Below, one piece after another: positions 25,925-26,130 of a DNA stretch of 64,000 bases (positions within the stretch are counted from its first letter, which is position 1; each line of letters opens with the position of its first letter). The stretch is from Candidatus Peribacteria bacterium (GTDB lineage Bacteria > Patescibacteriota > Gracilibacteria > Peribacterales > Peribacteraceae): assembly GCA_023038255.1 (NCBI GenBank), contig CP082927.1, positions 1,130,146-1,194,145 on the forward strand, written 5' to 3'. Position numbers and translations under genes: made by a program. The notes under the pieces were generated by a model. The model ran no database searches and was not told where the DNA came from. It was given only the letters and a program-made list of their open reading frames with translations.

Positions 25925-25999
25925 GCCGCCCTAGCTCAGTGGTAGAGCACTTCCATGGTAAGGAAGTGGTCGTCGGTTCAATCCCGATGGGCGGCTCCA
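25925..25999 (+). tRNA. tRNA-Thr (anticodon GGT)
   Basis: A full cloverleaf is visible: acceptor GCCGCCC/GGGCGGC, D-arm GCTC-AGTGGTA-GAGC, anticodon arm CTTCC-ATGGTAA-GGAAG with GGT at 34-36, T-arm with GGTTCAATCCC, discriminator T and an encoded CCA. Confidence 0.96.
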
Positions 26000-26013
26000 T
26001 TTTTGTAAATCCA

Positions 26014-26130
26014 CGTAGCCCTAGCTCAGTGCAGCCCCAGAGGGGCGCCCCTAAAAAACACCTGTGACGCCACAGCGTCACATCCATGGTAAGGAAGTGG
26101 TCGTCGGTTCAATCCCGATGGGCGGCTCCA
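26014..26130 (+). pseudogene. Broken second copy of tRNA-Thr(GGT) with a palindromic insert
   Basis: The last 48 bases (26083-26130) are identical to the 3' part of the intact tRNA-Thr (25952-25999), including CCA. The 5' part keeps GCCCTAGCTCAGTG but the acceptor 5' strand has two changes, and the D-stem 3' strand plus the first anticodon-stem bases are replaced by about 52 bases. The insert holds the palindrome AGGGGCGCCCCT (26041-26052) and a perfect 8-bp hairpin TGTGACGC-CACA-GCGTCACA (26063-26082). Without GAGC it cannot fold a normal D-arm, so it is called a pseudogene. Confidence 0.8.

Follow-up and report, generated by a model that had tools for sequence, protein, structure and literature searches.

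A split copy of tRNA-Thr behind an intact gene

The DNA analysed here, which we call the window, is a stretch of 64,000 nucleotides spanning positions 1130146-1194145 of the single-contig, 1,239,242-base genome of a Candidatus Peribacteria bacterium (labelled G000). At 25925..25999 of the window it carries an intact tRNA-Thr(GGT) gene with an encoded CCA, called by ARAGORN and scored at 64.5 bits by the Rfam tRNA model. An earlier note on this DNA had described a second copy of the gene, split by an insert, 14 bases further on. The copy is indeed present (26015-26130, 116 bases), and it starts 15 bases past the intact gene, the spacer occupying 26000..26014; these features and the parts of the copy described below are on the + strand. 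Its first 17 nucleotides are those of the tRNA except for two differences, at nucleotides 2 and 3: the copy of the acceptor 5′ strand (26015..26021) reads GTAGCCC where the intact gene has GCCGCCC, and the copy of the next ten tRNA bases, TAGCTCAGTG (26022..26031), retains the D-loop up to the first G of its GG. The insert had been put at about 52 bases (26031-26082); we find 51 foreign bases (26032..26082), which replace bases 18-27 of the intact gene. The 3′ half (26083..26130) comprises part of the anticodon arm, the variable loop, the T arm, the acceptor 3′ strand and CCA, and in these last 48 nucleotides (TCCATGG...CCA) BLAST found no difference from the intact gene, as had been claimed.

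ARAGORN called no tRNA in the second copy, nor did the Rfam tRNA model in locus L002. Six of its seven acceptor positions can pair with its own 3′ strand (one as G-U), its T stem is intact, and its anticodon stem has 3 bp in the predicted fold, which was moderately better than those of shuffled sequences (z −1.8). We rejected the idea of a split or intron-containing tRNA: bases 18-27 are absent from the copy, so excision of the insert cannot restore the D arm and fails to yield a complete tRNA. That the copy arose as an artefact of assembly is unlikely, given 13 more downstream split copies with this architecture, 12 of them in other genomes.

Both structures that the earlier note had reported in the insert, a 12-base palindrome and an 8-bp hairpin with loop CACA, were located. 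Hairpin 1, GCCCC AGA GGGGC (26034..26046), has a counterpart in the leader units described below and is overlapped by the palindrome, AGGGGCGCCCCT (26041-26052). A linker, CCCCTAAAAAACACC (26048..26062), which is A-rich here and in relatives, leads to hairpin 2, TGTGACGC CACA GCGTCACA (26063..26082). When the insert was shuffled 200,000 times, an 8-bp hairpin arose in 77 shuffles and a 12-base palindrome in 978. A search with an 81-bp query found no second copy of the insert in the 1,239,242-base genome, where it is thus unique. Hairpin 2, searched genome-wide with up to 3 mismatches, gave 7 forward and 7 reverse matches against 6 and 6 for a reversed control, which is no excess. A plasmid collection returned only matches of ordinary tRNA extent, with 0 records covering 80% of the query. 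A dispersed palindromic element of the REP or MITE type was rejected, as multiple similar copies at unrelated genome sites were not found.

Genes for a class-V aminotransferase, a NifU_N protein and an S-layer-homology protein flank the site. Elsewhere in the window, a helix-turn-helix protein (30247-30960) precedes a 4131-aa open frame with many FG-GAP repeats (30957-43352). A 9-bp hairpin with a minus-strand T tail (26144..26165) is a possible terminator of the convergent gene at 26188-26925. With a convergent frame so placed, the insert might act at the level of DNA or antisense RNA, its A-rich linker and hairpin 2 forming an opposite-strand intrinsic terminator that shields the tRNA; read in the minus-strand direction, hairpin 2 runs on into GGTGTTTTTT and was scored terminator-like. 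Against this, the 9-bp hairpin (26165-26144), itself terminator-like on the minus strand, already lies between the gene and the copy, leader units keep the A-rich linker without hairpin 2, and the tRNA parts, hairpin 1 and the cognate complementarity would be left unexplained. We consider this function very unlikely.

A direct repeat of a tRNA 3′ end is the usual footprint of an integrated element, and the 48-nt repeat might be read as the attachment-site remnant of an element integrated at the 3′ part of the tRNA. Such an origin is hardly credible: the copy also includes the 5′ part of the tRNA and an insert whose two-hairpin design is conserved, it is the 5′ end that leader units duplicate, the two 48-nt repeats are less than 100 bp apart, and no integrase family was found in six window proteins scanned near the site (24214-43352).

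Leader units upstream of tRNA genes

Within the 260 bases behind tRNA-Thr(GGT), the same order of parts was found in three relatives (G016, G010 and G075) and eroded remnants in others. A related arrangement was found upstream of tRNA-Thr in further genomes, where the first 17-19 nucleotides of the tRNA, a GC hairpin, an A-rich stretch and a GCTCGG segment precede the intact gene. BLAST with one such leader unit, together with a pattern search, revealed units before many different tRNAs, each copying its own tRNA. The parts run from a putative promoter through a copy of nt 1-19 of the following tRNA, hairpin 1 and the A-rich linker to a segment that complements nt 22-27 of that tRNA, after which comes the intact tRNA itself. 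We count 145 units, mostly 91-100 nt long, for 14 amino acids at 125 of 218 distinct tRNA loci, a share that should not be read as a rate for whole genomes, since a match was the reason for fetching many of the loci. The tRNA copy ends at G18 or G19 (standard numbering) independently of D-loop length, and the window's split copy breaks at the same point. A clean hairpin 1 stem, 5-9 bp long, was seen in 90 of 126 units (13.9 after shuffling), with 33 distinct arms; a CGAG..CGAG stem, found in 19 units, would place tandem G.A pairs in an RNA helix. The core sequence is highly variable within one genome. Silent excision may still be conceivable for the leader units.

The leader tRNA copies at several loci (L005, L249, L221, L131, L133 and others) hold, within the D-stem, a second class of palindromes (CCTGCCTGCCGGCAGGCAGG; CCAGCCTTCGC...GGCTGGCAGG types) that is absent from the intact tRNAs at the same loci. 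Examples in our own genome are at tRNA-Gly(tcc) (G000:893387) and tRNA-Val(gac) (G000:810872).

Promoter-like hexamers lie in the 45 nt before single leader copies (TACAAT in 11, TATACT in 10 and TATAAT in 8 of 94) and are rare before the following intact tRNA (0, 6 and 2 of 126, respectively), which makes transcription of the unit as a pre-tRNA leader probable. A broader TANNNT test separated the two positions more poorly (0.40 before the leader copy vs 0.36 before the intact tRNA; 0.17 shuffled). A motif TG[ACT]TC[ACT]TT, placed some 22-32 nt ahead of the intact tRNA, occurs in 56 of 126 units, against 2.3 in shuffles. It resembles the boxA of rRNA leaders, and the genome's own 16S leader carries GCGCTCTTTGAG; this is a resemblance only.

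Distribution of the element

A pattern of the form AGCTCAGN{1,5}CCNAGCCNNGC gave 32 matches in 21 of the 74 genomes of the family and 0 in a reversed control. A covariance model, R1, built from 27 leader units, had matches in 54 of the 74 at E≤0.01; at E≤0.001 across 353 genomes of the class, it matched 51 of 74 within the family and 2 of 279 outside it, both weakly. When a strict pattern was run against 84,980 genomes, one per species, all 22 of the 22 stretches recovered belonged to Peribacteria or Peregrinibacteria, their record titles naming Peribacteria, Peribacterales, Peribacteraceae, Peribacter or Peregrinibacteria.

Among the 47 tRNAs of our own genome, Thr(tgt), Trp and Pro(ggg) have clear leader units in front of them; R1 detected a single unit in this genome, that of Thr(tgt). 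In front of Gly(tcc) and Val(gac) stand leader variants with a different hairpin, a fragment of 5′ copy follows Ile(gat), and split copies lie behind Thr(ggt), the one in the window, and Met. The existence of an element family is well supported. Judged by sequence, its members, tRNA-derived and numerous, look like structured RNAs of an undescribed kind that lie beside many tRNA genes in one group of uncultured bacteria.

Complementarity between leader and tRNA

The leader segment NNGCTC is complementary to nt 22-27 of the following tRNA (standard numbering; GAGC and the next two bases). Across 122 non-redundant units, the complementarity of the leader segment to nt 22-31, the ten bases from GAG onward, scored 1753, against 1581 ± 25 after permutation (z 7.0); the maximum among 5000 permutations was 1683, and neighbouring sequence windows were weaker. 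The GCTC core itself is present in only 90 of the 122. Column tests on those 90 units singled out nt 26 (z 7.1) and nt 27 (z 4.4) and gave no support for complementarity past nt 27. At nt 26, A stands opposite U in 54 of 67 units and G opposite C in 18 of 23, and with the 20 isoacceptors permuted as blocks, 0 of 3000 permutations reached the observed value. Because nt 26 has no Watson-Crick pair in the cloverleaf, mimicry of the D-stem does not explain the complementarity. That it reflects base pairing between leader and tRNA is a well-supported reading of this covariation.

Beyond GCTC, the next segment showed weak complementarity to nt 1-8 of the tRNA (z about 2.6). Pairing of the acceptor copy with the leader segment was rejected as a sole explanation, being not significant in a first set of units and weak in a larger one. 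The acceptor copies of 110 leader units (770 positions) contain 26 differences, and selection for pairing of the acceptor copy is not supported, since 19 of these break a pair with nt 66-72, 6 give G-U and 1 is Watson-Crick.

A small non-autonomous mobile element could also produce units of this kind, if it entered the D-loop of a tRNA, duplicated the tRNA 5′ end and left the intact gene restored behind; the downstream copies would then be insertions into duplicated genes. Consistent with such an element are the patchy presence (54 of 74 family genomes), the tandem arrays at L080, L202, L207, L230 and L239, the many tRNAs broken at the same point, and the flanks just upstream of both copies, which share a mean of 4.1 identical bases compared with 0.7 when swapped between amino acids. 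However, mobility gives no reason why each host tRNA should be accompanied by a segment complementary to its own nt 22-27. The strong variation of the core within a genome also speaks against it, as does the fact that among the loci read, elements lie beside tRNAs or at contig ends, bar a few chance-like matches. The earlier note had suggested a small palindromic mobile element; the patchiness and the arrays leave room for mobility, but the insert of the window is unique, the commonest hairpin 2 is not dispersed, and leaders copy and complement their own tRNA, so that we find this origin unlikely. The note's other guess, a tRNA-like RNA, fits better: the parts keep their order across genera and tRNA types, and hairpin sequences vary while pairing is kept. 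It had also said that an insert unique in the genome, together with a second copy absent from reads or from close relatives, would speak against its reading; the answer was split, the insert sequence being unique and the second copy being present in relatives.

Downstream split copies

Downstream copies were sought as 3′ halves behind 212 tRNA loci, then by a scan for the element motif, and then with a model, R2, built from nine copies. Including that of the window, split copies were found at 14 loci in 12 genomes: behind Thr(ggt) in G000, G016, G010, G075 and G059; behind Met in G000, G059, G051, G003 and G087; and behind Arg(tcg) in G001, Trp in G078, Thr(tgt) in G011 and Ile in G048. In G087 (L338:299-517), two split tRNA-Met units stand in tandem behind the intact gene with a period of about 130 bp. 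The order of parts is 5′ copy, hairpin 1, A-rich linker, hairpin 2, anticodon arm, T arm and acceptor strand. The window copy shares with the leader and downstream elements of Peribacteria a 5′ copy that ends in the D-loop, hairpin 1 and the A-rich linker; directly before the anticodon arm it has the 8-bp hairpin 2, at the position that in leaders is taken by the 22-27 helix predicted from covariation.

Hairpin 2 pairs in 9 of 9 downstream copies tested, with 4-8 bp and 7 distinct stems. Stems found later, read by eye, are TGCGGC-ACA-GCCGCA, TGCGGC-GGA-GCCGCA, ACGCC-GCA-GGCGT and TGCGC-GCA-GCGCA, that of Ile being weak. Many start with TGC and end with GCA, which may be compared with TGCTC:GAGCA in leaders, and in G011 the hairpin 2 of Thr(tgt), TGCTCGC-AGCA-GCGAGCA, amounts to the leader segment fused to GAGCA. 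In alignments with model R2, made from downstream copies only, leader units are covered in full and carry about 50 additional bases (e.g. G044:C18:18678-18819); weak scores of the model also fall on ordinary tRNAs, which means that the 66 of 74 genomes it tallied do not give a number of copies. Given the TGC/GCA stems, the G011 fusion and these full-length alignments, we read hairpin 2 as the same structural element as the leader:tRNA helix, for which it would stand in. The commonest hairpin 2 sequence, of the CTGCCGC type, is not a dispersed repeat: it matched exactly only at split tRNA copies in G010 and G016, and in G051 there was one other exact palindromic match.

Preservation of the copies is uneven. 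Among copies scored for acceptor pairing, whose 3′ ends lay within the extracted sequence and were not eroded, it is 7/7 in the Met copies of G051 and G087 and 6/7 in the window, G075, G059 Met and G078; the Met copy of G000, the Ile copy of G048 and the Thr(tgt) copy of G011 have lost the acceptor copy and this pairing. Elsewhere the 3′ half is truncated in G059 Thr and G003 Met, and the copies at L004, L008, L043 and L045 are clearly decaying. Such decay would suit an ordinary tandem tRNA duplication turned pseudogene, with hairpins gained by chance in the D-arm and similarity maintained through gene conversion, as would the acceptor-copy differences in leaders, most of which break pairs. 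Yet the order of parts is constant over the 14 downstream loci in 12 genomes, for Thr(ggt), Thr(tgt), Met, Arg, Trp and Ile. The T and acceptor stems of the G075 copy differ from those of the neighbouring tRNA and still pair (by eye, with one acceptor mismatch). In the leader arrays L080 and L202, moreover, the copies are identical to the tRNA while their linkers have diverged (identity 0.75 and 0.82), and the tract of identity is short for recombination; arrays L067, L105 and L230 have copies with 3-5 mismatches. We regard a decaying duplicate as quite unlikely to account for the element.

Proposed fold and mechanism

We interpret the split copy in the window as a tRNA-derived structured RNA, the downstream form of an element of Peribacteria whose leader form would share one 3′ half between two 5′ halves, and whose use would be control of tRNA yield or a tRNA-like product; we hold the chances for and against this reading to be about level. 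The window copy is predicted to fold into an acceptor stem (5′ copy with its own 3′ strand), a D-loop remnant, hairpin 1, the A-rich linker, hairpin 2, and the anticodon and T arms, in sum a tRNA body with two hairpins added between D-loop and anticodon arm. In the leader form, the leader segment would pair with nt 22-27 of the following tRNA in place of hairpin 2. Served by its own 5′ half, the 3′ half would give an ordinary tRNA; served by the leader copy, it would give an extended tRNA-like RNA in which part of the real 5′ half is sequestered. The alternative acceptor pairing that this implies, of the leader 5′ copy with the tRNA 3′ strand, is plausible. The element would most likely serve either in lowering or timing the yield of that tRNA or in supplying a tRNA-like product for recognition by a synthetase, RNase P or a tRNA-cutting enzyme; the window copy, locked in the alternative fold, would act as a decoy or regulator.

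More tentatively, and with the balance somewhat against it, we propose that Peribacteria have bistable tRNA genes. The leader copy would capture the 3′ half and its antisense segment would sequester the real 5′ half, allowing a single transcript to become a tRNA or else an extended tRNA-like RNA with two hairpins; each downstream copy, that of the window included, would be a gene dedicated to this extended form. We infer from the sequence patterns that the elements are transcribed, that the alternative fold forms in cells, and that it acts as a switch of use to the cell. In predicted energy, the alternative fold was close to the cloverleaf (mean difference −0.3 kcal/mol) and was lower in 40 of 76 cases. 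We rejected this as thermodynamic proof of a switch, as leaders of other amino acids given the cognate nt 1-7 did as well or better (−1.0 vs −0.3, p 0.065). When only the tRNA up to nt 34 was included, the leader helix was predicted with low probability, the mean being 0.18 and the median 0.01 for cognate leaders, and 0.10 for swapped ones. These results speak against the switch, as do the acceptor-copy differences that mostly break pairs and the erosion of several downstream copies.

If the proposal is correct, a lineage-specific class of tRNA-derived RNA would lie at many tRNA genes of these small-genome candidate-phylum bacteria and would couple tRNA synthesis to an alternative fold. Individual tRNAs could in this way be regulated, or tRNA-like products made that bear a normal anticodon. 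It raises the question of whether two 5′ halves share one 3′ half. It would also be a warning that ‘tRNA pseudogenes’ annotated in genomes can be conserved structured RNAs.

Comparison with known systems

In 18 loci scanned against Rfam 15 at permissive E-values, only tRNA matches reached the cut-off; among downstream copies in the loci scanned, only that of Trp (L339) reached the tRNA cut-off (29.7 vs 29 bits). The parts seen of a paper on five Peribacteria genomes mention 46 tRNA genes and no such split copies (PMC4736985). A review covers naturally occurring tRNAs with non-canonical structures, outside the standard cloverleaf; its parts available to us describe other kinds, and no tandem or extra-hairpin form like the Peribacteria element was found in them (PMC7609411). 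A search of the indexed literature found no description of such tRNA copies. As only tRNA exceeded the Rfam cut-off and no description was found, we rate the element family as new, a class not previously described within the indexed literature.

Like ordinary tRNA genes and their tandem duplications (Rfam RF00005), the element keeps the cognate anticodon arm, T arm, acceptor strand and CCA, but it has two hairpins in place of the 3′ side of the D-arm. tmRNA likewise has a tRNA-like domain without a normal D stem, whereas the Peribacteria element keeps the anticodon arm; the one tmRNA match of note in the Rfam scan (L337, 24.6 bits) was below the cut-off of 47. T-box riboswitches bind tRNA in trans through its anticodon and CCA end and control mRNAs. 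The likeness is that the structure of the leader RNA would depend on pairing with a tRNA; the Peribacteria leader, in contrast, precedes a tRNA and would pair with nt 22-27 in the same transcript. A T-box was rejected, as none was among the listed Rfam matches and the element stands before tRNAs and not mRNAs. The RtT RNA, or tyrT repeats, of Escherichia coli are tandem repeats downstream of a tRNA, each with a fragment of the tRNA 3′ end. The Peribacteria element resembles them in forming tandem repeats beside a tRNA that each hold a fragment of that tRNA, and differs in that it mostly copies the 5′ end, lies upstream, accompanies many tRNAs and carries an anti-tRNA segment.
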